A stretch of DNA of 44,520 nucleotides, taken from positions 1 through 44,520 of the forward strand of contig JASCXY010000005.1 in NCBI GenBank assembly GCA_030012235.1. The letters are read 5' to 3'. How positions within the stretch are numbered: the stretch's first letter is position 1; each line of letters starts with the position of its first letter. Shown here one piece after another: positions 18,585-33,638 of the stretch. The DNA is from Balneolaceae bacterium ANBcel3 (GTDB taxonomy: Bacteria > Bacteroidota > Rhodothermia > Balneolales > Natronogracilivirgulaceae). The notes under the pieces were generated by a model. It was not told where the DNA came from and did no database searches. It was given only the letters and a program-made list of their open reading frames with translations. The position numbers and the translations under genes are program-made.

Positions 18585-20012
18585 ATGCTATTCTCTTATA
18601 TGAAAGATTCGCCGGTATGTATGCCAGTTATTATCGCTTTGTGCACCTTACTTGCTGTATATAAACCTCTGCAGGCTCAGGATACCATACGTGTTCATTT
18701 TGATGCATTTGTTGAACGGGCTATTGAACATTCTGCCCAATTAGAAGCTCGTCAAAAACAGGTTGCATTGGCAGAAAACAGAATTCGGGAAGCTCAGTCT
18801 CTTCGTGTATTGCCAAATCTCAACCTGACTACCGCGCACGGATTTGTGCCAGGGGTAAAATCACGAAATCCGGATCTGTCTCCGGGACAGTATTACCTGG
18901 ATCCCGATCTGGAGAACGATTGGGAAGATTGGGCCTTTTTTACCCAGGCAGAAATAAGCGGACTGCAGCCTATTTATACCTGGGGTGCCATATCAAATGC
19001 TATAAAAGCAGCAAGAAGTGGAGCCGATGTGGCCCGACATGAGTTTCATGTACAAAAAGAGAGTTTTAAAATTCAGCTTTTTGAGCTTTATCAATCTGCC
19101 ATACTTGTCAAGGAATTGGAACGCCTTGTTTCAGATGCCAAGTCTCAGTTAAATCAGGCAGAAAGAGAGCTGGAAAAAATGAGAGAAGAAGGAGATCCGT
19201 CTCTTGAAGAAAAAGATGTCTTTGAATTTTATATCTATAAGGAAGAGTTCCTGGCTCTTGAGCTGGAGGTTCAGCAAACCGCACTTTTTGTTCAAAGGGC
19301 ATGGAATGTCGTGCTGTCAGCTGGCAGAGATGAACTATTTTTGCCCAAAGAATCGTTTCTTGACCCTGTACCTGTACACATTCAGGATATAACGTTTTAT
19401 CAGAGCAGCGCCATAAATAACCGGCACGAACTTCGCGGTCTCTCGGCTGCACAGGAAGCTGCCCGTTATGGGGTTTCCATCGCCCGTTCTCAGTATTATC
19501 CCAGCATGTTTATGGGGCTCAGTGCCGGAATCGGATATACTCCAAACCGACCCCGGCAAACCAACCCGTTTATAAGAAATTCTACCAACTTCCAATCTGT
19601 CCGGGCAGGGATCGGTTTTCAACAGAATTTGAACTTTTTACAGATACGGAGCAACGTCCAGCGTTCTGAAATTCAATTAAGACAGTTGAGAGATTATGAA
19701 GATGCGGCTAAAGACGGAATCATGCTGGAAATCCACGATGCTTATATGGATGCAAAAATTGCAGAAGCTCGAAGAAGCAGTAAAAATAATGCGCTTCGAA
19801 TCAGCAATGAATGGCTTCGAACGGAACAGATTGATTTTGATATTGGTTTTGGTGATATAAAAAACCTGGTAGACGCCGTTAAAAAGAAAATGGAACTCGA
19901 GTTTGAAGTAACACAGTTAACCTATGACTACAACTTGAAACTCGCCAACCTTTACCACCAGGCTGGATTGAAGTTGCAGGAGCTCATTACTACTGCAACA
20001 AATAAAGATTAA
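18585..20012 (+). CDS. TolC-family outer-membrane efflux protein
   Basis: 475 residues with an N-terminal signal peptide ending near LQAQ, then the tandem outer-membrane-efflux repeats: long amphipathic helices (~40-80, 150-250, 370-470) and beta segments (~90-130, ~310-345). The repeated tyrosine/glycine strand FMGLSAGIGYTPNRPRQTN, and DYNLKLANLYHQAGLKLQEL near the C-terminus, are typical. TolC-like proteins form outer-membrane channels for export or lipid trafficking systems. ATG at 18585 was taken; ATG at 18600 gives a shorter, equally good signal peptide. The MlaC-like gene follows after 58 bases, so they probably share a transcript. No inner-membrane pump is nearby. Confidence 0.9.
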   Translation: MLFSYMKDSPVCMPVIIALCTLLAVYKPLQAQDTIRVHFDAFVERAIEHSAQLEARQKQVALAENRIREAQSLRVLPNLNLTTAHGFVPGVKSRNPDLSPGQYYLDPDLENDWEDWAFFTQAEISGLQPIYTWGAISNAIKAARSGADVARHEFHVQKESFKIQLFELYQSAILVKELERLVSDAKSQLNQAERELEKMREEGDPSLEEKDVFEFYIYKEEFLALELEVQQTALFVQRAWNVVLSAGRDELFLPKESFLDPVPVHIQDITFYQSSAINNRHELRGLSAAQEAARYGVSIARSQYYPSMFMGLSAGIGYTPNRPRQTNPFIRNSTNFQSVRAGIGFQQNLNFLQIRSNVQRSEIQLRQLRDYEDAAKDGIMLEIHDAYMDAKIAEARRSSKNNALRISNEWLRTEQIDFDIGFGDIKNLVDAVKKKMELEFEVTQLTYDYNLKLANLYHQAGLKLQELITTATNKD

Positions 20013-20070
20013 AAACGTTAGATCTGTATTAAGTACATGAACAGGATCATCTTCTGAAAGACGTAAAATA

Positions 20071-20661
20071 ATGAGTAAACTATTTTTAATACTTTTTCTT
20101 TTTTTGGCTGGAACCACAAGTGAACTCGCTTTCGCTCAATCTCCGGAGCAGGAAGTTCGAAGTATTCTTGAAGAAAGAGACCGGCAAATAAAAGATCTGC
20201 TTGGTGATCGAAACAGTGACTACACCGAAGAACAAAGGGAAAAACTCCGTGGGATTGTAAATGATATGATGGATTATAAGTCCATGGGAAAGTATGCCCT
20301 GGATGCTACCTATCAGGAGCTTACAAGAGAGGAACAAGAAGAGTTTATCGATCTTTTTTCTAAAATTATCAGAGATCAGTCTTTACAGCAACTGGATATT
20401 TATCGTGCAGAAGTTATCTATGACCAAATTACCGTTGATGAAAATAGGGCAAAGGTAACAACAACAGCTATTTTGGATAACAATCGTGTTCCTGTCTTAT
20501 ACCGAATGGAACAGATGGATGGCGAATGGGTAATCATTGATATGTCTGTTGATAATGCATGGACGGCAGAATCATACCGACGGTCTTTTCAGAATATTAT
20601 TCGCAGACGCGGTTTTGATGCACTTATGGAGAATCTGCGAAGACGTGCAGGACAAGTATAA
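20071..20661 (+). CDS. MlaC/Ttg2D-family periplasmic phospholipid-binding protein
   Basis: 196 residues with a signal peptide ending near LAFAQ. The mature protein has the family pattern: an N-terminal helix (EQEVRSILEERDRQIKDLL), the segment DMMDYKSMGKYALDATYQEL resembling the MlaC 'D...R...LG..W..LT..Q' block, and EQMDGEWVIIDMSVDNAW near the C-terminal beta sheet. MlaC shuttles phospholipid between the outer-membrane MlaA complex and the inner-membrane MlaFEDB transporter. MlaD, MlaE and MlaF genes are absent from the window, so they would have to be elsewhere. Association with a TolC-like gene is a recurring but poorly explained arrangement. Confidence 0.85.
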   Translation: MSKLFLILFLFLAGTTSELAFAQSPEQEVRSILEERDRQIKDLLGDRNSDYTEEQREKLRGIVNDMMDYKSMGKYALDATYQELTREEQEEFIDLFSKIIRDQSLQQLDIYRAEVIYDQITVDENRAKVTTTAILDNNRVPVLYRMEQMDGEWVIIDMSVDNAWTAESYRRSFQNIIRRRGFDALMENLRRRAGQV

Positions 20662-20846
20662 GCAGAAAGACCTGCAGCGCTGAAGGTACCTTTAATTGTT
20701 TATTACAGAGACAAAGAAAAAGCGTAAGGAACAGTATAGAAATATGACAGAGTGTGCTGTTATCACAGCTTGAGAGTGAGTAAGGGTTTCTAAAAGTACG
20801 ATAACCCACAGAAAAGAATGAAAAAGCAAGCGAACATACACCCTGG

Positions 20847-21740
20847 TTAACTTGCCGTATCAAATAACCCTAGTGCCTGAGTTTCACGTAAATACATCTG
20901 AACGTGCTCTTTTTCTTTTTGGGTAAGGCGAAACTGAGGATGATAACTCAAGTTTTTTCCGGTGCTTTTTAACAACGTATACCAAAACAGATTTACCGGG
21001 GTTTTTCGGAGGCCGGAGTAGAACATCCTGAGCGCCTTCGATTTTGGTTGGACCTTCATGTGGCGAATCAAATAGGAAGCGTAGGAGTGATCCAGTCGTT
21101 TATAAAGGTGCTCTTTCCAAAGAGAAAGAAAATGACGGTATGGATTCCGTTTGCGATCAGAAAAAAAGAAAGCCGGATTGTTTTTAAACATGATCCCCGG
21201 AGCATACCCACCTATTGGAGCATGCACATAAGGTTGATGAAAATGCTCGGGATGGTCAAGGTGATACAAGGTGGATCCAAACCAGCACATATCACACCCG
21301 TCTGAAAGTACCTGAGCTTGCTTTTCCAGGCGCTCAGAGTGGCTCCATTCGTTTTCGTTGAAAAGTGCGACAAACTGTCCGCGTGCTTTCTGAAGGCCGT
21401 AATTCAGCAGAGATATGGTATCTCCGGGTTCTATTTTGGTTTTATGGTGTTCATACATTCCAGGATGCAGGTCCTCCAGCAAAGGGGACAGGTCCTCGTT
21501 TCCTCCCTGTACAAGAATCAATACTTTGTTAAACCAGGTTTGGTTCTGAAAGCAAAGTATGGAGCGTGCTGTTTGAGCATGATTTATCGAAGCAGGAAGA
21601 ATACAGCTGATTTGTCCTGGTTCATGTTGCATGATGAAACGGTTTGGAGTTTGATAAGAGTTCCGATCCGGTACCTGATGGTATTGCCGGGGTCTTATTT
21701 TATATAGGGTAAAGAGACATAAATTCCAATACCTTATCAT
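20847..21740 (-). CDS. GT2-like protein with a degraded catalytic DxD motif
   Basis: 297 residues. From about residue 43 it follows the GT2 pattern (ISCILPASINHAQTARSIL, then GQFVALFNENEWSHSERLEK), but the usual DxDD triplet is NENE at 128-131, and the earlier DDGS motif is replaced by QGGNED. It may be inactive or use other residues. The first 36 residues look unlike a GT2 start; Met37 (start at 21632) is a credible alternative and would leave a 108-base leader including the hairpin at 21741-21775. It is transcribed alone, divergent from the TagF-like gene. There is no signal peptide or clear membrane helix. Confidence 0.75.
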   Translation of the reverse strand: MIRYWNLCLFTLYKIRPRQYHQVPDRNSYQTPNRFIMQHEPGQISCILPASINHAQTARSILCFQNQTWFNKVLILVQGGNEDLSPLLEDLHPGMYEHHKTKIEPGDTISLLNYGLQKARGQFVALFNENEWSHSERLEKQAQVLSDGCDMCWFGSTLYHLDHPEHFHQPYVHAPIGGYAPGIMFKNNPAFFFSDRKRNPYRHFLSLWKEHLYKRLDHSYASYLIRHMKVQPKSKALRMFYSGLRKTPVNLFWYTLLKSTGKNLSYHPQFRLTQKEKEHVQMYLRETQALGLFDTAS

Positions 21741-21775
21741 AAAAAGAGTAAAAACTGTTTTTACACTCTTTTTTT
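21741..21775. repeat. AT-rich hairpin abutting the GT2-like gene start
   Basis: GTAAAAA (21748-21754) pairs perfectly with TTTTTAC (21758-21764) around a CTG loop. A second set, AAAAAGA (21741-21747) with TCTTTTT (21767-21773), extends the stem after a two-base bulge. On the minus strand it would end directly at the ATG at 21740 and could hide the translation start; on the plus strand it has a T tract but lies over 1 kb from the nearest upstream plus-strand gene. Confidence 0.6.
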
Positions 21776-21968
21776 ATGAAAAAGAATGATACTTTTTAAC
21801 CGGAGAAACTTCGGATTATTTTGTTTTAACAGAGAACGAATGTATATGAACCTTTCTATATAAAAGAAACGGTTGGTATGGGCTTGAAAAGGTCTGTGTT
21901 CTGCAGGGCTTGTCTTTTTCAATCTATGTTGCAAAGTGTGATATTTTAATATGTTAGCCAGATAAACC

Positions 21969-23132
21969 ATGAAAATATTAGTGTATGCCACATCTTTAGG
22001 GGCAGACTTGCTTTCAATGGTTCGCTTTCTGGAAGCCAGACAGAATGTTGAAATTAAAATTCTGGTAAATAATCCGGAATTGATCATGAAAGAGCCTATG
22101 CTCAGAATCTGGCCTCTTAAAAGTGAATTGATCTCCCGGACGTTTCTACGTTCATTTATTGGAGTACGTGGGTTTAAGCCGGATATTACCATCATGGATA
22201 ATCATCTGCCCTATAGGAAAACCTCTCCTAAAGCATTGATTTTGTGGCATGGGTTTGGGTGGAAAGGCCCGAATGATGTGGAAGAGTTTAAATGGCTTCA
22301 CAAACAAATTAAAAGCAACTGGGGGGATGCTATGCAGCCCAATCCCCATTTTGTGTGGCAATGTTTCGGTCCATGGGACTTTGAACACCGAACCCAGGTG
22401 AGCGGTTTTCATCCTGATAATTGCAGAGTTCTGGGAGCAGCCAGCCATGATGAACTTATCCATCCATTTGACAAATCACTTGCAGCTGAATATTATCCCT
22501 TCGATATTCAAAGCCGAAAAAATGTACTCATAGCGCCGACCTGGCACTATGGAGAAGTGTTTTCACACTGGGGAGGCGACCGGAAAGTCCTGACAAACAT
22601 GATTCAGCAACTTGGGGAAAAGGACGCGAATATCATCTTGCGCCTTCATGATTCTTTTCGTTTTGAGAAGAGCTATGTAAAGTGGCTGAAATCGTTAGAA
22701 AAAGAGCATCCCAACCTGTTATTGAAATTTAAAGATGTATATCCGGATAATTATCTGGATATCAAAGTATCTGACTTGCTGATCACTAACTTCAGCAGCA
22801 TAGCCAACTTATTTTATGCTACAGGAAAGCCTGCGATTCACGTTTATCCGGTAACAAGTGCAGACGAAGCTTTTTTATGGAGAAAACAAACGCTTATTGG
22901 ACAGCGAATGAAGGAAATACCCAGCGCCAGATACATTTGGAAGTTGCCCCCTGAAGAGAATGGTGGCTGGATGGCGAAGAATGAGAAAGAGTTACTTGAT
23001 ATGACTAATATCGCTTTAAACGATGAAACATGTTGTGCAAATGAAAGCCGGTCGTTTCTGGACAAACACATGCTTGGCGCTGACGGAAAAAACAGAGAAC
23101 GGATCTGGAAAGTGATGCAGGAAATGTTTTAG
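21969..23132 (+). CDS. TagF-like CDP-glycerol/CDP-alditol phosphotransferase
   Basis: A 387-residue GT-B-like protein. The C-terminal half carries the CDP-glycerol:poly(glycerophosphate) glycerophosphotransferase (PF04464) signatures: LIAPTWHYGE (~177-186), ILRLHDSFRF (~216-225), and VSDLLITNFSSIANLFYATG (~267-286). The N-terminus, MKILVYATSLGADLLSMVRF, is a Rossmann-like start. Relatives transfer glycerol-, ribitol- or other alditol-phosphates from CDP donors to cell-surface polymers; in Gram-negatives they modify capsule or O-antigen. It has no membrane helix. It is a monocistronic plus-strand gene, divergent from the GT2-like gene. A gene for CDP-glycerol synthesis is not present, but a CDP-inositol-forming enzyme lies 8 kb downstream. 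Confidence 0.85.
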   Translation: MKILVYATSLGADLLSMVRFLEARQNVEIKILVNNPELIMKEPMLRIWPLKSELISRTFLRSFIGVRGFKPDITIMDNHLPYRKTSPKALILWHGFGWKGPNDVEEFKWLHKQIKSNWGDAMQPNPHFVWQCFGPWDFEHRTQVSGFHPDNCRVLGAASHDELIHPFDKSLAAEYYPFDIQSRKNVLIAPTWHYGEVFSHWGGDRKVLTNMIQQLGEKDANIILRLHDSFRFEKSYVKWLKSLEKEHPNLLLKFKDVYPDNYLDIKVSDLLITNFSSIANLFYATGKPAIHVYPVTSADEAFLWRKQTLIGQRMKEIPSARYIWKLPPEENGGWMAKNEKELLDMTNIALNDETCCANESRSFLDKHMLGADGKNRERIWKVMQEMF

Positions 23133-23442
23133 TGAGAGACGACGAGAAGCAAACTAAAACAGATCAAAGGATAAACGAAATGAGCTGGCCTGCTTGTTCA
23201 TACAACAAAAAGGGAGACATACTTTGACAGTCGAAAGAAAAAGGAAAAACGCTTGAAAGCTGAGAGTGGAGCCTGAGTATGGTCGTGTAAAAAATGGGCT
23301 ATACATTACACCGAGCATAATGATGACTATTCTGAAATACGATATAAGTATTTCTGTAATCCGTTAAGTACCCGTTACGGGTATTTAAAAGTATGTACTA
23401 AAAGCGAAGAATTTTTATGCGTTTGGTGGATATGCTTTCGTA
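23133..23442. other. Intergenic region between convergent TagF-like and GT4 genes
   Basis: 310 bases without a convincing coding frame. It holds a small perfect hairpin, TACCCG-TTA-CGGGTA at 23369-23383, followed by an AT-rich run; this could be a weak terminator for the TagF-like gene but lacks a proper T tract. No tRNA, repeat array or conserved RNA was recognised. Confidence 0.5.
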
Positions 23443-24522
23443 TTATGATGTCTTTTTAAGTGCGCGGAAAAGGAGCATCATATCGCGAAGGGCACGGGAA
23501 GAGGATGTGTGGTTCCAGCGTTCCTGAGCGTATTTACGAGCATTCTTTGAGAGTGCTTTTAAACGTATTTCATCGGATAAGAGGGCTTGAATTTCAGTAG
23601 CAAATCCCTTTTTAGAAACGCGGAGTCCGATTTCTTCCGGAATAACATCTTCATGAATGACCTTTTTGAAAGCAACCGGGGGGATGCCGCAGGAAGATGC
23701 TTCGGCAATCACGCAAGGGAAATGATCCCCGAGGCCGGTATGGAAAAACAGTCGCCCTTTGTTTAAGTAGTCAGGCACTTCATGGTGCGGGATGGTACCA
23801 AACCATGTGATCTTGGGGTAGTTGTTTTTAAACGTTTCATACATGGGTCCACCACCGATTACTCCGATTTTCAGATGGTGTGATAACCGGAACAGGGCGT
23901 CATAATTCTTATTGTTAGGCAAAAGACGACCCATAGCAATGACATCAAACTCTTTTTTTATTCCTGAATCGGGAGAAAAGTGTCGGGTGTCAACCGATTT
24001 TTCAAGATGGATTAACTTCTCTTCATCTATAACAGGACGCCAAAAGCGCAGGCCCCTGGTGGAAAGCTGTTTTTTCTGCCCTTCCGTTTCATAGAGAATG
24101 GCAAATGCATGTTTAAGAAAGGGATGATACCATATACCATCAAGGATAACTGCAAAAGGAATGTTATTTGGTATTAAAACTTCCCGAATTAATTGAAGTC
24201 CGACTCCTCCGTCCGCTCCTTTGATTACAAAGAATGAGGCTGCTTCTTTTTTTGCCGCTTCGCAGAGTTCGCGTGATGTATGTTCCCTGGATTTTGAAGA
24301 GTTCTTGTCTGCTTCGAAAATTCGTACAGGTAGGGATGGCAGGTCATCATATTGCCACTCTGTTTCAAGAGGAACGTTACCGGCAGCCCACAGGCTGGAT
24401 GGGTATCCTTTTTGAATACATAAAGCGGGCATCCACTTATCCCTGTTTGCGAGATCAGGGAAGTCCTTTTCTTCAGTCAGATCGTGGTAAACAGGATAGG
24501 ATTGAACAAAAATGATATTCAT
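23443..24522 (-). CDS. Family 4 glycosyltransferase
   Basis: 359 residues with a GT-B fold. The N-terminus (MNIIFVQSYPVYHDLTE) is followed by the hinge and donor-binding half with FDVIAMGRLLPNNKNYDALF (~190-209), IGVIGGGPMYETFK (~221-234), WFGTIPHHEVPDYL and the DHFPCVIAEASSCGIPPVA region (~273-291), in which E281 is in the position of the GT4 carboxylate. The second glutamate of the canonical E-x7-E pair is not obvious. It is monocistronic on the minus strand, facing the TagF-like gene, with a long leader upstream. Acceptor and donor are unknown; the context suggests surface glycan synthesis. Confidence 0.88.
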   Translation of the reverse strand: MNIIFVQSYPVYHDLTEEKDFPDLANRDKWMPALCIQKGYPSSLWAAGNVPLETEWQYDDLPSLPVRIFEADKNSSKSREHTSRELCEAAKKEAASFFVIKGADGGVGLQLIREVLIPNNIPFAVILDGIWYHPFLKHAFAILYETEGQKKQLSTRGLRFWRPVIDEEKLIHLEKSVDTRHFSPDSGIKKEFDVIAMGRLLPNNKNYDALFRLSHHLKIGVIGGGPMYETFKNNYPKITWFGTIPHHEVPDYLNKGRLFFHTGLGDHFPCVIAEASSCGIPPVAFKKVIHEDVIPEEIGLRVSKKGFATEIQALLSDEIRLKALSKNARKYAQERWNHTSSSRALRDMMLLFRALKKTS

Positions 24523-25093
24523 TATTTCGGGATATTTTTGAAAATAGGGAAAAATACTCGGGTACTTTAATATATAAATCTAATACTTCACGAACCTGCG
24601 GGAAAGACGAAAACGTGGATGTCCGGACAGATTACCCCGTAGGTTTCGGTAATATATGAAAAGAGACCGATTGATAGGTGAATTTCAGATTCAACGAATA
24701 AATTGTGTTTTATTCCAGGTGTTGTTTCCGTGAAAATAACGGATAAAGAGTTCGGCATTTTCGGAAGGGAGTTGTTTATAGCGTTTTTTTCAGCTTTTCA
24801 AATACTCGTTATCTTCGGAACGCCTGTAATCCGGATAGCGGAACGATGATGCATCTCATAGATGCATGTGTACTCTTCCGAATACTATGGAATCCGGCTC
24901 ACTAATCAAATAGTCAATATGTAATATTACGGAAATGATACGTGGTGATTTTCTTTAAGCCAAAATCTGGACTGTTCCAGGATAAAAGGTGTGTATTGAT
25001 TTTCAATTGGCCTAAAGTCCATACATTCAAACTCAACCTTCGGACTTCAGGTTAGCTACCTGTTACCTTCTTTTTATCGAAAAAAGCTTTTTT
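24523..25093. other. Long intergenic region upstream of the GT4 gene
   Basis: 571 bases with no credible protein-coding frame. It contains the nested inverted repeat at 24831-24897 and, next to the stop of the LPG-synthase-like gene, the 14-base palindrome of six A, GC and six T at 25080-25093, which may end that transcript. The remainder should hold the promoter of the leftward GT4 gene. No transposase, tRNA or CRISPR unit was seen. Confidence 0.5.
24831..24897. repeat. Nested three-block imperfect inverted repeat
   Basis: Three blocks pair in order around a CAT loop: CCGGAT (24831-24836) with ATCCGG (24892-24897), CGGAA (24839-24843) with TTCCG (24876-24880), and ATGCATCT (24849-24856) with AGATGCAT (24860-24867). 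Nineteen base pairs in 67 bases could form a bulged hairpin in RNA or a cruciform. Its flanks are not target-site duplications. Confidence 0.55.
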
Positions 25094-26080
25094 CTATTCT
25101 TTATTCACGGGAACGGGATCTTTAGAGTAATAGGAAATAATCAAAAATAACAACAAGTTAGATCCTTTTTTTAAAGCACTTGTTACCAGTAGCATTCCCG
25201 CAACACCAGCGGTAGAAACGGTAAGATACCTGGATAATTCTATCCCTGCCCATAAAAAAACCAAATCCCGGCTTGGAATAAATGGAATACGATTTATGAT
25301 GATAATCAGAGCAACGAGCAAAAACCATTCGTTTATCGGGATTAATGGAAATACAATAGACCATTGCAGTATTAATAATCCATGATGAAGAATAAAACGA
25401 GAGAAATAGATGGAAAAAATCAGAGAAGCTTTTTTAAGGCTGAGTGAAAAAAGATACTTCCGGAACTGGAAAAGAAGTGCTCCGACTATTACAAATAAAA
25501 CCAGAAAGAAAAGAAGGTAAAGTATATTCAGATGGTCAAAAAAAATATCAGGGTCTAAAATTCCCAAAAATAATAGAAGACCTACCAGTAGAAAGGCAAC
25601 TATATTGGAGGTTATTGAAGAGAGGATCGAATTATCCCGAATGTCAGCGAGTATATTCAGGTCTTTTTTGTCAAGTTGCTTTCTTCCCCAAGTGAACAGG
25701 TGCAGCTCACCGGAATACCCCATAACCTCTTCGTTGTAAACCTTTTTTATGATCATTGTTTTAAAAAGGTCGAACTTCTTTAATGGCCACACTTGACGGT
25801 AAACCATAACTTCTGCTATTGGGAGGGTCAGGTACAGAATAATAAAAAGGACATAAAAAAGAGGCTGTCCCGGAAGAGATTGCAAAACTTCATTCCATCC
25901 AATTTTATAAAGATTATAAATAATGAGGGCAATAATAAAAGCCAACAATCCTTTTCGAAAATAAGAAATGGATTTTTTCACATTTGGATGATCGGCATAT
26001 CGGGCTTTGAGACCCTTGATCCTTTCTCGTAAAAGGGAAATAAGAGGCCGGTTTTCTCTTTGCGGATGTAGCTTATTCAA
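25094..26080 (-). CDS. Polytopic membrane protein, LPG-synthase-TM/UPF0104-like
   Basis: 328 residues: a basic cytoplasmic N-terminus (~40 residues), then about eight hydrophobic helices. The LPG_synthase_TM-like (PF03706) hallmark here is the GYSGELHLFTWGR segment (~122-134) after helix 3, with a charged KKVYNEE stretch before it and a late RIPFIPSRDLVFLWAG segment. Related proteins are flippase-like or accessory membrane proteins in envelope lipid and glycan pathways; the catalytic LPG synthetase domain is absent. The gene starts inside the end of the Stealth phosphotransferase gene (eight-base overlap), which ties the two functionally. It is visibly AT-rich compared with the ATP synthase block. 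The exact activity is unknown. Confidence 0.75.
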   Translation of the reverse strand: MNKLHPQRENRPLISLLRERIKGLKARYADHPNVKKSISYFRKGLLAFIIALIIYNLYKIGWNEVLQSLPGQPLFYVLFIILYLTLPIAEVMVYRQVWPLKKFDLFKTMIIKKVYNEEVMGYSGELHLFTWGRKQLDKKDLNILADIRDNSILSSITSNIVAFLLVGLLLFLGILDPDIFFDHLNILYLLFFLVLFVIVGALLFQFRKYLFSLSLKKASLIFSIYFSRFILHHGLLILQWSIVFPLIPINEWFLLVALIIIINRIPFIPSRDLVFLWAGIELSRYLTVSTAGVAGMLLVTSALKKGSNLLLFLIISYYSKDPVPVNKE

Positions 26081-27068
26081 AATACCCCTTAATTTGGTCT
26101 AAATATTTTTTTCTAATTCTTTCGGCGCCCTGCAAACACAAAAAGTGGACTTTTTTCTTTTTCATTTTATTTAATTTCCACCGGATAGTAACGAAGAAAT
26201 CCATTTCTCCATGGATCATTATGGCATTGGAATCATCTTCCAATAGTGCATTTTGATTTTTAATTTCAAGATGATGAGCCAGGAAAACAGCAGAAAACTG
26301 GTCTGTATTTCTGAATTTGTAGACTATATTCTTCTCAAAGGCATCGACATTAGCCTCAAAAAAATGTTTAAGTGTTGCTGTTCGTATTGGATGGGGCACA
26401 TGGGGAGAAAGAAAATATTTTTTTTTAAAGCCGGCTAAACATGCAGAGCGCATTTGTTGAAGCAGGTGCATGGATCGGGTAATCCCGAGTATGTTTTTGG
26501 AAATGTAATTAAAAAGATTATTTAACTTCATTCGAAATAAACCATAATGCCTCATTTTGGCCCATCTTCCACGTAAAACCGGTTTGCCCTCCTTAAAAAA
26601 ATCATGTGGTTCCACAGGTTGAACAAGAAAGAAATCGTCGTTAAAATAAATAAATGAAGGTGCCAGATCCGGAATTCTCCAAAGAGCAGTTTCTATCGTT
26701 CGTGCATTAAATGTCGGAAGTACTTGTTCATAAGATTCAAACAGTGTGGTGTGATCAACTATTGAAATCCGAAGCTTTTTTTGCATTTCAGGAGTTAAAA
26801 ACGATGGCACCTGATCGTCTGTAATTAAATGAATCTTCCTTACCCAGGGTGCATATTTATGAATAGATTGAAGGCAACAGTATATTTCACCATTATCCAA
26901 AAAGCGGGTTTTGTCTTTTCCGGTTAACAGGTCGTTTTCTTTAACTTCTTCACTTCCATTAAAATAACGGTTTCTTTTCTCTATATATCGCTCTTCATTG
27001 CCATCTACCCAAGTAATAACGATATCAATATCCGGTGAAGATGTTTTTGATGTGTCAAAATCTTTCAT
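26073..27068 (-). CDS. Stealth-family sugar-phosphate transferase (capsule phosphotransferase)
   Basis: 331 residues with the conserved Stealth regions in order: CR1, IDIVITWVDGNEERY (residues ~14-28); CR2, NGEIYCCLQSIHKYAPWVRK (~59-78) through FNARTIETALWRIPDL to YFNDDFFL (141-148, NDD at 143-145); then a shorter CR3 near PHVPHPI (~222-228). Stealth proteins (for example capsule phosphotransferases of Neisseria and GlcNAc-1-phosphotransferases) transfer hexose-1-phosphate from a nucleotide sugar to a glycan acceptor, giving phosphodiester-linked polymers. The protein is cytoplasmic with no membrane helix. It is the upstream gene of an overlapping two-gene operon with the LPG-synthase-TM-like membrane protein. 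The donor sugar is unknown. Confidence 0.93.
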   Translation of the reverse strand: MKDFDTSKTSSPDIDIVITWVDGNEERYIEKRNRYFNGSEEVKENDLLTGKDKTRFLDNGEIYCCLQSIHKYAPWVRKIHLITDDQVPSFLTPEMQKKLRISIVDHTTLFESYEQVLPTFNARTIETALWRIPDLAPSFIYFNDDFFLVQPVEPHDFFKEGKPVLRGRWAKMRHYGLFRMKLNNLFNYISKNILGITRSMHLLQQMRSACLAGFKKKYFLSPHVPHPIRTATLKHFFEANVDAFEKNIVYKFRNTDQFSAVFLAHHLEIKNQNALLEDDSNAIMIHGEMDFFVTIRWKLNKMKKKKVHFLCLQGAERIRKKYLDQIKGYFE

Positions 27069-27265
27069 ACAAATTTATGTCGGGATGGATAAGCTTTTTG
27101 GTAAATCATTTGAAATAACGGGTAAAGATATCGTATATATAAATACACTTTAGTTAAATGCAAACAACCTAAATCAAGAGAACAAGATAAAGATTGTAAG
27201 CTTTTTTTTCAGGTTGGCCATTATGTTCGTAACTTTTGCATATCCTGTGGCAGTAGGAGTATTTT

Positions 27266-28888
27266 TTGTTATTTAGCATCATGCTCAAATTAATCTTTTT
27301 TTTTATCCTTCTTTTCTCCTTTTTTCCCGAAGATGCAGCGGGAATAACGGACGAAGATCTTTCTCCGGGATTTAAAAAAGATATTTTAGAAAGCGAGAAT
27401 CAAAAGCAGCCGGATACTCCCCAAAGAGTTTTTACCTATGGTACAATGATTCAGGCAGGGGGAGGAACCGCAGGAGAGATGCCCTTTTGGCTCCACTCAA
27501 ACCGCTTTGGAAGCCTTGATCGATATAGTCAAAACTCATCTCTTCATCTGTTTGGTTCGTGGAAGGAAACTATCTTTGACCGATTAGTACTTTCGGTTCA
27601 TTTTGACCTGCTCCTTCGTGATGCACATCAATCAAACGCCTGGTTCCAGGAAGCTTATGTACAAGGTGAATACGCTGGGTTTGTATTTTTTGCCGGCCGA
27701 AAAATCGAACATTATGGCTTGGTTCACCCCATGCTTTCTTCTGGTACCATGGATCTGTCACACAACGCAAGGCCTATGCCTAAAGTTGTTTTTTCTACAA
27801 AGGATTTTCGTCCGGTTCCATTTACGAGACGTGTTTTTTATTATGACGCATCAGTTGCCCATGGGTGGTTTGATGATAATTCATATCGCTTTACAGATGA
27901 TGTCTTGCTTCATCAAAAACACCTCTATATCCGCATGTTTTCGGAAGATGCTCCTATTGTACCACGTGCAGGACTAAAACATTTTGCACAATGGGGTGGT
28001 TTTTCTCCTTTAACCGGACAAGCACCTGTAAACTTTCGCTCTTACATAGATGTGTTTTTTTCATTGGCCTCCGACTCAAAAGAAATTTTACCCGGTGGAA
28101 AAACATCCAATCATTTTCAAAACCATATAGGTACTTATGATTTTGCTTTGATGTTAAATCTGGGGAGTTATCGAATTTCTTTAAGTCGCCAGTTTATTTT
28201 GGAAGATACTCCTAATGCAAGGTTTGGTACGCCCTGGGATGGCATGTGGGGCGCATATATCGAACTTCGCCCCGATTCCCGAACACGTTGGCGGTCTGAC
28301 CGTCCAGCTGATTGGAGAACAGAACACCGGCCTCTTTTAAAGGCTGTTCATTACGAATACCTTGACACAAAGGAGGGAATCGGCCGCTTTCCGCATCGAA
28401 CGATGAGTAATTATTTTGACTATTACAACCACTGGGCATATCGCGGAGGATGGACGTATCATGGAAGAGTGCTTGGAAATCCTCTTTTCAGTGGAGATCC
28501 TGAATATTATGGAGTGGTAAATAATATTCTCATTGGCCATCATGTATCTATGATGGGGTATGCCGGCCCGATTGACTGGCGTTTTTTTACGACGTATAGC
28601 AGAAACTATGGTTCCGGGCTTATTACGGAAAAAAATAGTGGCGACAGGCTCAGAGGGTTAACCGAGCGCCGGGACCAGTGGTCTGTTATGCTTGAACTGT
28701 CTTCTTATCTCTTTTCTGGAGGAACTTCTTACTTTAGTGAAACAGGAACGCTTAAAAATAAAACAAAAAATTCCTTCACCCGCCCTGTGCGGTTAACACT
28801 TTCATTGGCGTATGACTTTGGAGAGCTTTACCCCCAAAATTTTGGAATACTGGTTGGTTTCAGATGGGAAGGGAAGCGAAATCGCTAA
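27266..28888 (+). CDS. Wzi-family capsule assembly outer-membrane protein
   Basis: 540 residues with a signal peptide (hydrophobic ~6-24, DAAG end), then a beta-rich, aromatic/glycine-rich body consistent with an 18-strand outer-membrane barrel. The Wzi family (PF14052) signatures include EMPFWLHSNRFG, AYVQGEYAGFVFFAGRK, GAYIELRPDSRTRWRSD and HYEYLDTKEGIGRF. The C-terminus ends near LSLAYDFGELYPQNFGILVG, a barrel-like close. Wzi anchors or organises capsule polysaccharide at the cell surface. AGGAG(T) at 27255-27260 best fits the TTG start at 27266; ATG at 27281 is the alternative and removes five residues. It sits divergent from the Stealth/LPG pair, supporting capsule assembly for this block. 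Confidence 0.9.
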   Translation: MLFSIMLKLIFFFILLFSFFPEDAAGITDEDLSPGFKKDILESENQKQPDTPQRVFTYGTMIQAGGGTAGEMPFWLHSNRFGSLDRYSQNSSLHLFGSWKETIFDRLVLSVHFDLLLRDAHQSNAWFQEAYVQGEYAGFVFFAGRKIEHYGLVHPMLSSGTMDLSHNARPMPKVVFSTKDFRPVPFTRRVFYYDASVAHGWFDDNSYRFTDDVLLHQKHLYIRMFSEDAPIVPRAGLKHFAQWGGFSPLTGQAPVNFRSYIDVFFSLASDSKEILPGGKTSNHFQNHIGTYDFALMLNLGSYRISLSRQFILEDTPNARFGTPWDGMWGAYIELRPDSRTRWRSDRPADWRTEHRPLLKAVHYEYLDTKEGIGRFPHRTMSNYFDYYNHWAYRGGWTYHGRVLGNPLFSGDPEYYGVVNNILIGHHVSMMGYAGPIDWRFFTTYSRNYGSGLITEKNSGDRLRGLTERRDQWSVMLELSSYLFSGGTSYFSETGTLKNKTKNSFTRPVRLTLSLAYDFGELYPQNFGILVGFRWEGKRNR

Positions 28889-29471
28889 AAACTCTGACTT
28901 TTCATTCGGATAGAAGCCGTTTATATGCAAATAAAGAATACCGAAACGTACTGCTGAACTAATAATGCTTGCAAATATGTCCCGCAAAGGTGTTTTTTAG
29001 GAACAATATTGCTGAGGAGTGCTTTTTTGCTTCGTTAAGGAAGGAAGAGTCGTTTCTAACTAGTACGATGAATTTATTATCATGTTTGCAATGAGGTATG
29101 TAAATATGCGGCCGTATTTTTAATCCGAATACGAACTCATCCGGGAAACATGGCCATCATCCGGTTACGTTCTAAATAAAAGGGCCGCTTTTTTTGTTGT
29201 TTGCTTAATCGAGAGGCCGGTTTTTAGGTATCACTCGAAGGAGTACTTTTTGGTCCTGCCTCAGACATACAAATTAGGGAAGGACCAAAAATCTTTGCTG
29301 ATTCCCAGTATTAAAGTTCCTATTTTTGAGGTCATTTTAGTTTATGGCCATAACAAAATGGCTATTTACAAAAGGGTAGCCGATCACGGTACAAACCTTT
29401 CTCCATTGGTTTCACAGGTGGCAACGGCCTATTTCAGTGATTCGTTATTTATTATTAAAATATTTTCTTTT
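28889..29471. other. Intergenic/leader region before the inositol-phosphate synthase gene
   Basis: 583 bases if the synthase starts at 29472. The first ~350 bases show no coding frame worth reporting and only weak GC-rich stem material near 29183 (AAAGGGCCGC then a T run). The last ~225 bases hold a long hairpin (29247-29291), and from a TTG at 29250 preceded by AAGGAG an open frame runs in phase into the synthase for 74 codons, but its translation has no resemblance to known family members. Confidence 0.5.
29247..29291. repeat. 11-bp perfect inverted repeat in the leader of the inositol-phosphate synthase gene
   Basis: TTTTTGGTCCT at 29247-29257 is the exact reverse complement of AGGACCAAAAA at 29281-29291. 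After one mismatch the stem continues with CC/GG and a possible T-G pair, leaving a loop of about 15 bases. With no T tract after the stem on either strand it is not a normal terminator; it could be a leader-RNA switch or a protein-binding dyad. Confidence 0.6.
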
Positions 29472-30788
29472 ATGTCAGATTCTACAATAAAGCCTCATAA
29501 AGGTAAACTTCTTGTATTGGTTCCCGGAATGGGAGCTGTTGCCACAACCTTTTTTGCCGGTGTTGAATCGGCCCGGCAAGGACTCACAAAACCATTGGGG
29601 TCACTGACTCAAATGCAGACCATTCGGCTCGGAGCCCGTTCTGAAAACAGAAACCCGCTGATAAAAGAGTTTCTTGATCTCGCTCCTTTGTCAGATCTTT
29701 CGTTTGCCGGATGGGACGTTTATAAAGACAATGCCTATGAGGCAGCGAAACGATGCGGTGTATTGACTCCACAGGACCTGGATCCGCTTGCCGACTTTAT
29801 GAGCGGAATAGAAGCCATGCCGGCCGCATTTGACCCATCGTATGTCAAACGACTCAATGGAGATAATGTAAAGTCTTATAAGGATAAAAAGGAGCTAACG
29901 GATGCGGTAAGAGAAGATATCCGTGGAAAAATGGCAACATCCGGAGCCGAACGTGCCGTTATGGTCTGGTGCGGATCAACAGAAATCTTCCAGCAACCCA
30001 AAGCCTGTCATCAGTCTCCGGAAGCGTTTGAAAAAGGACTCAAAGAAAACGACCCGGCGATTTCTCCTTCACAAATCTATGCCTATGCTGCGATAATGGA
30101 AGGGGTGCCTTACGCAAATGGGGCACCAAACCTGACCGCCGATATACCGGCTTTGATTGAACTTGCGGAACAAAAACAGGTTCCAATTTGTGGAAAAGAT
30201 TTTAAAACCGGACAGACATTGATAAAAACGATTTTAGCACCCGGTTTTAAGACGAGAATGCTTGGTGTGAAAGGGTGGTTCTCTACCAATATTCTTGGGA
30301 ACAGAGACGGAGAAGTCTTGGATGATCCCGAGAACTTCAAAACCAAGGAGGTTAGTAAAGCCGGTGTTTTGGATACCATTCTTCAACCGGAGCTGTATCC
30401 TGATCTTTATGGAGATCTGTATCACAAAATCAGAATTAATTATTACCCGCCGCGGGGAGATGAAAAAGAAGGCTGGGATAATATTGATATTTTCGGATGG
30501 ATGGGATATCCCATGCAGATTAAAGTGGATTTCCTTTGCCGGGATTCCATTCTTGCGGCACCCATTGTACTGGATCTGGCATTATTTCTTGATCTGGCTC
30601 AGCGATGTGGCCGGTATGGTGTTCAGGAGTGGCTTTCCTTTTACTTCAAGAGTCCACAGGTGGATGAAGGCCATATCCCGGAACATGATGTATTCATACA
30701 GCATTTCCGACTGAAAAATACCCTGAGAGTTCTTGGTGGCGAAAAACCATTGACTCACCTTTCAGAGAAGTTGGATTTTGATGAATAA
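29472..30788 (+). CDS. ino1: Myo-inositol-1-phosphate synthase
   Basis: 439 residues. NAD+-dependent enzyme converting glucose-6-phosphate to L-myo-inositol-1-phosphate in the cytoplasm. Visible hallmarks are the N-terminal Rossmann segment KLLVLVPGMGAVATTF, VMVWCGSTEIF (~157-167), NGAPNLTADIPALIELAE (~217-234), the CGKDFKTGQTLIKTILAPG active-site loop (~243-261), and the GWFSTNILGNRDG signature (~272-284). ATG at 29472 was chosen because MSDSTIKPHKGK precedes the conserved core as in bacterial relatives; the frame is open upstream to a TTG at 29250 but that extension looks non-coding. The CTP:inositol-1-phosphate cytidylyltransferase gene follows after 69 bases on the same strand, so the product is probably activated to CDP-inositol. 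Confidence 0.95.
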   Translation: MSDSTIKPHKGKLLVLVPGMGAVATTFFAGVESARQGLTKPLGSLTQMQTIRLGARSENRNPLIKEFLDLAPLSDLSFAGWDVYKDNAYEAAKRCGVLTPQDLDPLADFMSGIEAMPAAFDPSYVKRLNGDNVKSYKDKKELTDAVREDIRGKMATSGAERAVMVWCGSTEIFQQPKACHQSPEAFEKGLKENDPAISPSQIYAYAAIMEGVPYANGAPNLTADIPALIELAEQKQVPICGKDFKTGQTLIKTILAPGFKTRMLGVKGWFSTNILGNRDGEVLDDPENFKTKEVSKAGVLDTILQPELYPDLYGDLYHKIRINYYPPRGDEKEGWDNIDIFGWMGYPMQIKVDFLCRDSILAAPIVLDLALFLDLAQRCGRYGVQEWLSFYFKSPQVDEGHIPEHDVFIQHFRLKNTLRVLGGEKPLTHLSEKLDFDE

Positions 30789-30857
30789 CCCCCTAAGCCG
30801 GAGAGAATCATCTGCTACTCAGGATGGATCTGTCCGGGTTTCTCAGGAAAAAGACCT

Positions 30858-31577
30858 ATGCGTACAGGTATCATTTTAGCCGCCGGATTTGGCTCACGTC
30901 TCGCCGGCTCACATAACGAAACCCGTCTTAAGCCGCTTACACCGGTTGCGGGAAAACCATTACTGATTCGGACATTAAACAGCCTTGAAATGGCTGCTTG
31001 CCATAACGTTATAGTTGTGGTCGGATATGGGGGCGAAGAAGTAAAAAAGGCTTTGAACGAGTTCTACTCAGGGCCCTTGTCGGTCGACTTTGTTTTTAAT
31101 CCACACTACGAAAAACAAAACGGGTTGTCTCTTCTTGCAGCAAAAGATCATGTAAGTAATGATTTTGTTCTTACTATGGCAGACCATGTCTTTTCCGATG
31201 ATATCATGAAATTGGCCGCGGTGCACCAACCACCCGATGAGGGTGCTACACTATTTGTGGATTATAATATTGAAGATGTTTTCGATCTGGATGATGCCAC
31301 AAAAGTATATGTGGATGAAAAAGAGAGAGTTGTTCGAATAGGAAAACAACTGGAAAAATTTAACTGCATAGATACAGGCCTGTTTATCGGGACACAGGGA
31401 ATGATAGAAGCCGGTAATTCTCTTTTTAAAGAAAAAGGGGACGCTTCGCTATCTGAAATCGTGGAAGCATTGGCCGGTAAAAAGAAAATGAATACGAAAG
31501 ATATTAAGGAGTCTTTCTGGCAGGATGTTGATACGCCCGAAATGCTGGCTTATGCAGAACAACAGCTGATGGCATAG
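30858..31577 (+). CDS. CTP:inositol-1-phosphate cytidylyltransferase (stand-alone IPCT)
   Basis: A 239-residue nucleotidyltransferase of the MobA/RmlA-like fold. The nucleotide loop LAAGFGSRL (~7-15) is followed by a KPLTPVAGKPLL segment. The middle and end match the IPCT half of archaeal/Thermotoga IPCT-DIPPS proteins closely as I recall them: EKQNGLSLLAAKDHV, FVLTMADHVFSDD, KFNCIDTGLF, SLSEIVEALA and DVDTPEMLAYAEQ. The reaction is CTP plus inositol-1-phosphate to CDP-inositol plus PPi. The second, membrane-embedded CDP-alcohol phosphotransferase half of the fusion enzymes is missing, and no such gene is in the window. Position just behind the inositol-phosphate synthase strongly supports the substrate. 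MobA or generic sugar nucleotidyltransferase is the main alternative. Confidence 0.87.
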   Translation: MRTGIILAAGFGSRLAGSHNETRLKPLTPVAGKPLLIRTLNSLEMAACHNVIVVVGYGGEEVKKALNEFYSGPLSVDFVFNPHYEKQNGLSLLAAKDHVSNDFVLTMADHVFSDDIMKLAAVHQPPDEGATLFVDYNIEDVFDLDDATKVYVDEKERVVRIGKQLEKFNCIDTGLFIGTQGMIEAGNSLFKEKGDASLSEIVEALAGKKKMNTKDIKESFWQDVDTPEMLAYAEQQLMA

Positions 31578-31617
31578 TACCCATTTCGAGTTAACGGCCT
31601 TGTTATACCCACGGATT

Positions 31618-31908
31618 CTAAGTTCGAGATTTCCAGTATCCCGGTTTACGCCTTAAATTCATTACAGCAAATATTGTAATCTGATCTTCTTCAACTGAGT
31701 AGATAATTCCATAGGCAAAGCGTGACACTAAAAATCTTCGTTCAGTTTTCGTGATTTTAGTCCCCGAAGCTGGCTGCTGCTCGATTACATCCAGTACTTT
31801 TTCTACTTGATCAATAAAATCACTCCCAAGGCCAACTACCTGCTCCTCGTAATATTCAGCTGCTTCAATAAATTCTTTTCTGGCTTCCGAATGAAATTTA
31901 ATAGTCAC
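31618..31908 (-). CDS. ParE/RelE-type toxin
   Basis: 96 residues with the ParE-family plan: an N-terminal strand and two helices (FHSEARKEFIEAAEYYEEQ, here ~4-22), then beta strands with FLVSRFAYGIIYSVEEDQIT and a final VMNLRRKPGYWKSR typical of ParE/RelE plasmid-stabilisation toxins. The start codon is GTG and overlaps the antitoxin stop as GTGA (31905-31908), so toxin is translated only after antitoxin. ParE toxins poison DNA gyrase, RelE toxins cut mRNA; the sequence favours ParE. It lies convergent to the cytidylyltransferase gene, 40 bases past its stop. Confidence 0.9.
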   Translation of the reverse strand: MTIKFHSEARKEFIEAAEYYEEQVVGLGSDFIDQVEKVLDVIEQQPASGTKITKTERRFLVSRFAYGIIYSVEEDQITIFAVMNLRRKPGYWKSRT

Positions 31909-32138
31909 TTTTGAAAACGTTTTCTTGCCTCATTGATGACATCAGAAGCAGAATGAAGGGAAGCCTTACCTGATTTAAGTGATTCTTTTCTCTTTTGAAC
32001 TTCATCAATCCAGGCCTGTTCTATTTTCGTATCTATTTTGCCATGAATACTTTGCAATAATTTGTCAGCCAGACGTGCTTTATCCTTTTTGTTTAGATTC
32101 AGGGCTGAATTTTCAATCTCTTTTAAATCGGTGATCAT
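31905..32138 (-). CDS. Addiction-module antitoxin (Unstab_antitox-type)
   Basis: 77 residues, small and charged, matching the putative addiction-module component group (TIGR02574/PF09720) in pattern: LNLNKKDKARLADKLLQSI (~13-31), then EQAWIDEVQKRKESL and VINEARKRFQK at the end. These partner ParE-like toxins. It precedes the toxin in the operon, overlapping by four bases. No separate DNA-binding domain is visible. Confidence 0.88.
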   Translation of the reverse strand: MITDLKEIENSALNLNKKDKARLADKLLQSIHGKIDTKIEQAWIDEVQKRKESLKSGKASLHSASDVINEARKRFQK

Positions 32139-32223
32139 AGTAAAAGTGTTTTGTTTACCTGAATGTAATCATTAACGTTTAAAACCGGAAGAAATTAGAT
32201 TTATTGATAGTGGGTATAATTTT

Positions 32224-33282
32224 CTAATGAACGATAAGCAGGTTGTAATTAACCGGAGTCGATCCGTTATCAATGCTGCCGGTTCCAACATACTCAATAA
32301 TCTCTCCTCCCAGAAAACTGCGAACCAGTCGTTTTCTCAACCCGCTGACTTCCTCAAGAAAAGAAACATCCTGGAAATGATTTTCCCGTTGAAAAGACCG
32401 GGTAAAGCCATCTTTATAGGTTATTTTTACGATTTCAGGAACACGTTTTCCAGAAATAGATGATTCTTTTTGAATGGAAAGTTCTACAGGATGCCGGACT
32501 GTAAAGCCATCGTTGTTTTTTTCAACACTCAGTCCAATGACCGGCCGCTCTGAGCGTTTTTTGGGAATCAAATAATAACCCGCGATAAAGCCATCATCCG
32601 AATGACTTACATACCGTAAACTTTTATCTACGATCTTGGATGAAAGATCGGTTTGGTATGTATGATCCATATATGCCGTACCCTCCACACTTAGAGTATC
32701 GTCGTTTATTGCCACCGTCCCCTTTACGCGGGCTTTGGGAATGTGGAAATACATACCCATGTCATCTCCCCCTACGTTCAGGACTCCGGAACCGTAGGCA
32801 AACCCGGGTTCTATATCAAAAAAGTTCAAATCAACCAGATAGGAGACCCCGTCTTTTGATGTTTCAAAATAAACGCGATGTTCATGAGGCAGCTCCCCTG
32901 AAAACCAGATATCTCTGCCATCATGCAATCGGAATACATGGTTTTCTTTATCTATGTCGAGACGTTCAAGAGTAAATTCTCTGGAAACATGATAGTTTCT
33001 TCCCTTGAAATTGGACACGAAAAGCTTTCCGCCGCTTACTGCACTTTTAAAGGTTCCAAAATTAGCCATAGAAAACGTCATATGCAGGTGAAGGTCGTCC
33101 TCAAGGAATAGGTGATACATCCAAAATTCATTATAGTAACTGCCCTCTCCGGTATGAGGCAACACATCGGACCAATCGGTGGCACGAAGACCCGTGCTGT
33201 CCGACGCGTTGCTTTTACTTTCAAAGCCGGTAGAGACAAAAGGGAAGAGAAGAAGGAGCAAGAAAAGGAATGGTCGTTTCAT
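32224..33282 (-). CDS. Secreted AttH/CrtC-type lipocalin-like protein
   Basis: 352 residues with a clear signal peptide (KRPFLFLLLLLFPFVSTG). The body is beta-rich and fits the AttH/CrtC/Svf1 double-lipocalin group (PF07143-like): the YYNEFWMYHLFLEDD segment (~49-63), MTFSMANFG, the DMGMYFHIPKARVKGTV stretch (~175-191), and the signature GTAYMDHTYQTD (~206-217). Members bind hydrophobic ligands or hydrate carotenoids; the enzymatic role cannot be assumed. It would reside in the periplasm or outer envelope. It is divergent from an MMPL/RND transporter gene, which raises the chance of a shared lipid-handling role. Confidence 0.78.
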   Translation of the reverse strand: MKRPFLFLLLLLFPFVSTGFESKSNASDSTGLRATDWSDVLPHTGEGSYYNEFWMYHLFLEDDLHLHMTFSMANFGTFKSAVSGGKLFVSNFKGRNYHVSREFTLERLDIDKENHVFRLHDGRDIWFSGELPHEHRVYFETSKDGVSYLVDLNFFDIEPGFAYGSGVLNVGGDDMGMYFHIPKARVKGTVAINDDTLSVEGTAYMDHTYQTDLSSKIVDKSLRYVSHSDDGFIAGYYLIPKKRSERPVIGLSVEKNNDGFTVRHPVELSIQKESSISGKRVPEIVKITYKDGFTRSFQRENHFQDVSFLEEVSGLRKRLVRSFLGGEIIEYVGTGSIDNGSTPVNYNLLIVH

Positions 33283-33638
33283 AAATTCAGCGTAAATGAG
33301 AAAAAAGCTAAAACAGAATATGAAATTAATCGTATATATTATACGTGCTGAAAAAGTCGTTGGTATATAAACAAAGTATCAAGTTTTTCCGGTTCATTCA
33401 GGAAAACGCCTGCTAATGGGGCGTCCCGAATGGTTTCGGTCTTCATTGAAGAGCAAAACACAGATAAAATCAGCCAGGTTATATCTGCTCTTAAAACCTA
33501 TAGTGAATGTTACCTGTATCAACGAACATAATAAAAATTAAGTACCTTTACGTTCAATTGAAAACAGGGACCCGACTGTGAACATTCTTTGATTTTTCGT
33601 AATTTTTCATCCGCATTTAATTTTATTTAAGATCATTC
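33283..33638. promoter_or_regulatory. Divergent intergenic region between the AttH-like and MMPL genes
   Basis: 356 bases, no credible coding frame. It contains a small perfect palindrome, CGTATA-TAT-TATACG, at 33331-33345 near the AttH-like gene, and TACCTTTA near 33542, which differs from the TAnnTTTG -7 box only in its last base and lies about 90 bases before the MMPL start. Both are candidates for promoter/operator parts; neither is strong. Confidence 0.4.

Follow-up and report, generated by a model that had tools for sequence, protein, structure and literature searches.

A Stealth-type phosphotransferase gene next to the gene of a membrane protein with a predicted MprF fold

In the window, i.e. 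the whole stretch of 44,520 nucleotides that was analysed, a gene for a Stealth-type phosphotransferase is followed on the same strand by the gene of a membrane protein whose predicted fold is that of MprF. The pair recurs in the order of this genome. Tentatively, and with slightly less than even confidence, we read the membrane protein as a stand-alone MprF-fold lipid translocator that works with interchangeable adjacent transferases; in the window this transferase would be the Stealth enzyme, whose lipid product would be flipped. The flipping itself, the nature of the lipid, contact between the two proteins and the way of export are what we infer for the pair.

The gene pair and its locus

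The window is a contig of a 3.2-Mb genome that was assembled in 490 contigs. The pair consists of the following elements:

26073-27068, minus strand: Stealth-type phosphotransferase gene; 331 aa, ATG to TAA; with CR1 and CR2, and with CLQG in place of CLND/CIND in CR4
25094-26080, minus strand: membrane-protein gene; 328 aa, TTG to TAG; predicted fold like MprF/LPG_synthase_TM, no Pfam or NCBIfam model
26073-26080, minus strand: 8-base overlap TTGAATAA between the stop of the Stealth gene (TAA) and the start of the membrane-protein gene (TTG)

Both open reading frames are present and share these eight bases, as the sequence-only reading had stated. The TTG at codon 1 is probably the true start of the membrane protein and the sole plausible candidate, because the frame opens at 26098, only six codons ahead of it, no further in-frame ATG, GTG or TTG occurs before codon 34, and the sequence AAGGGG lies about 4 bases ahead of the TTG. 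In 18 loci with the Stealth gene directly upstream, the gap between the two genes, computed from mechanical gene starts, ranged from -14 to +105 bases and was negative in only three, the window among them. The idea that the overlap is conserved and points to translational coupling was therefore rejected. Conserved are order, strand and closeness of the two genes; the eight-base overlap is not. A fusion of the two proteins was not found: two long Stealth frames (L029 and L039, 478 and 508 aa) were inspected, and their extra parts are by eye unlike the membrane family.

The pair is surrounded by these genes:

18585-20012, plus strand: TolC-like outer membrane protein
20071-20661, plus strand: MlaC-family periplasmic lipid carrier; best NCBIfam model HpnM, below its cut-off
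20847-21740, minus strand: GT2-like glycosyltransferase; below the Pfam cut-off, clusters with GT2 proteins of related loci
21969-23132, plus strand: Glyphos_transf (TagF-like) protein; in locus L157, the gene of a cluster-mate shares 4 bases with the membrane-protein gene
23443-24522, minus strand: GT4-type glycosyltransferase; next gene downstream of the membrane protein, at 571 bases; a cluster-mate lies directly upstream of it in five loci of genus g9
27266-28888, plus strand: Wzi-like capsule assembly protein, divergent from the Stealth gene
29250-30788, plus strand: myo-inositol-1-phosphate synthase
30858-31577, plus strand: nucleotidyltransferase; best NCBIfam model inositol-1-phosphate cytidylyltransferase, E=3.8e-46, 157.9 of 580 bits, below cut-off
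32224-33282, minus strand: CrtC/lipocalin-like protein
33639-36155, plus strand: MMPL/RND lipid exporter; HpnN/BstA-like, below the NCBIfam cut-offs

The pair thus sits between the TolC and MlaC genes and the MMPL gene, an interval that it shares with the genes for the GT2-like, TagF-like, GT4 and Wzi-like proteins, the inositol-phosphate synthase and the cytidylyltransferase. Many genomes of the order share the arrangement AtpG-TolC-MlaC ... MMPL (18585-36155 in the window) and differ in the genes between, as if a fixed site harboured a variable glycan/lipid island. With respect to gene calls, the inositol-phosphate synthase probably starts downstream of its listed TTG; its relatives begin nearer to KPHKGKLLVL. 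A small open reading frame at 31618-31908 on the minus strand resembles by eye a RelE/ParE-type toxin.

Both the MlaC-like and the MMPL protein have hopanoid-related proteins among their best models. Squalene-hopene cyclase (PF13243) was found in none of 40 genomes searched, that of the window included; a control search was positive in two of 14. A hopanoid export locus was rejected for this reason, and the lipid handled at the locus is probably not a hopanoid.

Recurrence of the pair and its partners

The gene for the membrane protein was found in 81 of 128 genomes of the order, a Stealth gene in 48, and both in 41. In 20 of these 41 genomes the two are immediate neighbours on the same strand, and in 19 of the 20 the Stealth gene comes first; three further genomes have one gene in between. 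A neighbourhood survey had been proposed as a check, and it established that the pair is not unique to this genome. The number of unlinked cases is an upper bound, as the genomes are partly fragmented, but the two genes lie on different contigs also in the good assemblies G004, G007, G023 and G026. A Fisher test of co-occurrence (41/40/7/40, 128 genomes) gave p=5.6e-5, a value that is confounded by kinship and was not counted as evidence. Forty genomes have the membrane protein but no Stealth gene, seven show the reverse, and the membrane protein has other tight partners elsewhere. The pair therefore recurs but is not obligate, and the idea of a dedicated two-gene Stealth module was not supported.

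The membrane family was found only in the order and class of the window: a sample of 395 genomes of the phylum contained 72 with the protein, all of which belong to this order or class. The partners of the family were determined in 80 loci plus the window, with mechanical gene calls and omission of open reading frames shorter than 100 aa. In genus g9, the GT4 gene is directly upstream of the membrane-protein gene in five loci, with gaps of -4, -4, -4, -4 and +1. In L157, the gene downstream that overlaps it by 4 codes for a TagF-like protein and is followed by the inositol-phosphate synthase gene. DUF3047 is encoded directly downstream on the same strand in nine of 20 class-level loci, i.e. 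loci from outside the order. At least one gene for a glycosyltransferase, a Stealth, a TagF-like or a c8 protein is within the retrieved flanks of 60 of the 81 loci, and MMPL or MlaC is within those of 28; 18 loci have none of these.

The main alternative, which we regard as possible but somewhat doubtful, assigns these partners to a shared pathway only. The membrane protein would serve the MMPL-MlaC-TolC envelope locus as a lipid transporter of general use, with Stealth as one of many mobile glycan-decorating genes that pass through this locus. This agrees with the differing transferases that the TolC-MlaC-to-MMPL interval holds across genomes and with the 40 genomes that have the membrane protein alone. 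It also agrees with the class-level loci, where DUF3047 is within the flanks of 15, GT4 of 14, MMPL of 12 and Stealth of none of the 20. Against it speak the immediate pairs, which share the strand and are Stealth-first in 19 of 20 cases. Moreover, when linkage is mapped onto a tree of 81 membrane proteins, 17 of them linked, three changes of state are required, at least two of which are forced by starred branches. The envelope locus alone does not explain the linkage, since the linked loci L171-L185 lack MMPL and MlaC in the flanks retrieved. The tree kept 81 of 83 proteins, those under 230 aa being left out, and the first alignment omitted one duplicate (L024, whose contig equals in length the G025 contig of L003). 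The tree of the Stealth proteins is too poorly resolved for counting gains of linkage.

The neighbouring genes suggest a further reading, that the locus makes a phosphoinositol lipid or polymer from CDP-inositol, with the membrane protein as a member of this pathway and Stealth as a side branch. In the window, the inositol-phosphate synthase and the IPCT-like cytidylyltransferase genes are 2.2 and 3.8 kb upstream of the Stealth gene. In L186, the genes for the TagF-like protein, the synthase and the cytidylyltransferase are contiguous between two Stealth genes, and in L157 those for the membrane protein, the TagF-like protein and the synthase are contiguous. The trio suggests a putative CDP-inositol-dependent phosphoinositol transfer, and an LPG-synthase homologue is common to Bacteroidetes inositol-lipid clusters according to the available text of PMC9246714. 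Nevertheless, we consider this reading very improbable: the inositol-phosphate synthase is present in only three of the 81 loci, and the score of the cytidylyltransferase is so far under the NCBIfam cut-off that inositol phosphate is only a candidate substrate.

Near GT4 and DUF3047-MMPL genes, at L143:6054-7444, L144:3633-5020, L145:1939-3326 and similar loci, two small membrane-like proteins are repeatedly encoded as a pair, one of about 300 aa (cluster c14) and one of 161 aa (cluster c18); Pfam assigned neither of them to a family, and NCBIfam gave no family for c14. In L231, L236 and L237, a Stealth protein of a different clade, with C(L/M/I)ND, is encoded near MMPL and a MobA-like nucleotidyltransferase, and the membrane protein was not found in these three genomes. 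L231 and L236 additionally encode GT4 and, as judged by eye, CDP-alcohol-phosphotransferase-like and PLD-like proteins.

Properties of the two proteins

The earlier assignment of the upstream gene to the Stealth phosphotransferases was borne out, as CR1 (PF17101, 37.1 bits, cut-off 27.2, E=2.5e-9) and CR2 (PF11380, 117.1 bits, cut-off 39.4, E=5.5e-34) are both above the Pfam cut-offs. Its relatives of solved structure, as found by sequence, are GlcNAc-1-phosphotransferase (GNPTAB) chains and mycobacterial CpsY. Among 43 Stealth sequences of the order, from which proteins under 280 aa were left out, residues E126, N143, D145, H223 and R253 are kept in 98, 95, 100, 100 and 100%, and D144 is invariant too. 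E126, N143, D145 and R253 match the active-site residues E305, N322, D324 and R419 of CpsY (CR2/CR3), an equivalence that was partly read from HMMER alignments and partly inferred; numbering and roles follow the available text of PMC10668966. The same text describes the CR4 tetrapeptide CLND/CIND as almost universal in Stealth proteins. In contrast, the protein from the window has CLQG, and its clade of 39 sequences mostly shows C(L/I)Q(G/A) or near variants at this position. C(L/I/M)ND is retained in a separate clade of four Stealth proteins. The protein is a divergent member of the Stealth family and is filed there by CR1 and CR2 only.

The membrane protein was less easily assigned. It reached no Pfam cut-off, and NCBIfam gave nothing at E<=1. 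In a search of its own genome, PF03706 (LPG_synthase_TM) scored 10.1 bits (E=0.83, cut-off 33.4), whereas four other places matched this model, three of them over the cut-off. A Pfam scan of 62 homologues yielded nothing convincing, and PF03706 was absent from the 14 families listed at E<=0.1. Profile-profile comparisons of the family, represented by 24 and 62 homologues, with 22 LPG_synthase_TM proteins were insignificant (probabilities 2.7 and 1.5). These 22 reference proteins contain a PGGxG motif at the 7a/7b break, in which P279, G280 and G283 are invariant and G281 is nearly so; the membrane family has PS(K/R)DL instead, and the protein from the window PSRDL. Membership in LPG_synthase_TM by sequence was rejected, given that the direct HMM search, the profile-profile comparisons and the scan of the homologues all failed. 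DUF4271 (E=0.0034, 17.7 bits versus a cut-off of 29.7) was not adopted, and profile searches among the sequences of solved structures produced chance matches only.

The structural comparison gave a different picture. The AlphaFold model of the membrane protein has a mean pLDDT of 84.7 and a pTM of 0.76. Foldseek alone found no match at E<=0.001. When VIA-align 2 was run on the best 508 Foldseek chains, four MprF entries came out on top with Z values of 16.9, 16.6, 15.9 and 14.9 (rmsd 3.7-4.3 over 269-280 residues), and the next chain had 4.8. Because helical bundles can reach Z values of 13-14 from their arrangement alone, L047, a genuine LPG_synthase_TM (PF03706) protein encoded in this genome, was modelled as a control (pLDDT 88.4). 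It matched six MprF entries at Z values of 15.4-18.9, the next one having 4.5. The control aligns inside MprF residues 26-341, whereas the range of the window model ends near 630-650; part of the latter, perhaps the C-terminal tail, was aligned elsewhere on MprF than the control.

The model contains eight helices and two inverted half-membrane hairpins (TM3a/3b and TM7a/7b), by which the MprF fold is recognised. The lengths of the helices in the protein and the control are practically the same (TM3a 17/17, TM3b 13/13, TM4 32/32, TM7a 15/16, TM7b 13/14, TM8 29/32 residues). Their order is that of subdomain 1 of RtMprF, for which the available text of PMC8131360 gives TM1, TM2, 3a, 3b, TM4, TM5, TM6, 7a, 7b, TM8. 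According to its model, the membrane protein is therefore built like MprF. It is not filed as a member of PF03706, since the profile-profile comparison is insignificant and PGGxG is replaced. The label LPG-synthase-TM-like, proposed from the sequence, thus holds for the predicted fold and fails for the sequence family. The description as an eight-helix protein without a synthetase domain was sustained by the Pfam scan, which detected no fused aminoacyl-phosphatidylglycerol synthase domain in the 328 residues, and by the predicted lipid flippase/scramblase fold.

In an alignment of 62 of the 83 membrane proteins, picked for diversity, N116, Y122, G124, D149, R228, P245 and P266 are invariant. 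K112 has a single exception, and position 305 holds Lys or Arg throughout. In the model, N116, Y122 and G124 are located at the 3a/3b break, D149 in TM4, R228 in TM6, P266 at the 7a/7b break and residue 305 in TM8, a pattern that would fit a lipid-handling core. For RtMprF, a gate formed by Glu280 and Arg304 at 7a/7b and TM8 is described in the available text of PMC8131360; that K305 with D272 or E281 might be the counterpart is a guess.

These positions bear on the question whether the protein transports anything. It could instead be a docking platform at which the soluble Stealth enzyme, or a different transferase, is kept near its lipid acceptor, in line with the solubility of the transferases at the tight gene junctions and with the absence of PGGxG from the family. 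Against this, the invariant charged and polar residues lie at both helix breaks and in TM4, TM6 and TM8, in the predicted membrane region and not only in loops. Furthermore, the MprF fold is known as that of a lipid translocator, as stated in the available texts of PMC8131360 and PMC11980842. We judge a platform to be distinctly improbable.

Under the preferred reading, a translocator with exchangeable partners, the soluble Stealth enzyme would act at the cytoplasmic face, with a nucleotide sugar as the donor of sugar-1-phosphate and a membrane lipid or a lipid-linked glycan as the acceptor. The translocator would take the lipid in via its two re-entrant hairpins and pass it to the outer leaflet, and the products of the adjoining MMPL-MlaC-TolC-type genes would carry it onward to the outer membrane. 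The pair may produce an unusual lipid of the cell surface and turn it over. A more far-reaching version combines all these steps into a split phosphosugar MprF, in which Stealth provides the headgroup, the new MprF-fold family flips and MMPL-MlaC-TolC exports, so that a surface phosphoglycolipid results; GT4 or TagF-like partners would provide other headgroups. This full version appears rather unlikely to us.

If the preferred reading is true, bacterial Stealth enzymes of this type gain an exit route across the membrane. The available text of PMC11980842 proposes that the physiological role of MprF-type transport domains may follow from the joined enzyme. With partners that switch among Stealth, glycosyltransferase and TagF-like proteins, this idea becomes testable by partner swaps on separate chains.

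Comparison with known systems

MprF is the closest counterpart by predicted structure. The membrane protein resembles its subdomain 1, including the two inverted helix-break hairpins, and in both cases a lipid-modifying enzyme and a translocator would form the working unit. In contrast to MprF, it has no fused aminoacyltransferase domain and no detectable sequence similarity, and its partner, a Stealth phosphotransferase, is a polypeptide of its own. By analogy, the pair would fit a two-chain version of an MprF-type domain plus enzyme, with Stealth as the enzyme. MprF transport domains are described as widespread; fusions to O-antigen ligases or glycosyltransferases are frequent, and some of the domains are unfused, as in YbhN (PMC11980842, available text).

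The LPG_synthase_TM/UPF0104 proteins (PF03706; YbhN, C-terminal domain of AglD) are likewise stand-alone membrane proteins near lipid- or glycan-modifying genes, and the modelled control shares the lengths of the hairpin helices. The low PF03706 score, the missing PGGxG motif and the insignificant profile-profile comparison set the membrane protein apart from them. The available text of PMC5898192 predicts the whole UPF0104 family to be flippases with a part in glycosylation.

The Stealth protein has CR1, CR2 and the residues equivalent to the four active-site positions of CpsY in common with the sugar-1-phosphate transferases CpsY and GNPTAB. It differs from them in CR4 and in being encoded alongside a flippase-like membrane protein.

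The hpnL-hpnM-hpnN genes of hopanoid clusters are similar in that an MlaC-like protein (best model HpnM) and an MMPL protein (HpnN/BstA-like) are encoded beside an MprF-fold protein. They are dissimilar in that squalene-hopene cyclase was found in none of the 40 genomes searched and that the HpnM and HpnN models stay below their cut-offs. HpnL is a UPF0104-type protein. The function of hpnL itself is given as unknown in the available text of PMC12583986.

In the open-access literature searched, no description was found of Stealth paired with a UPF0104, LPG synthase or MprF-type protein. The general kind of system is known; the combination of Stealth with an MprF-fold protein is new, and so is the membrane family, which is one without any Pfam or NCBIfam model so far.
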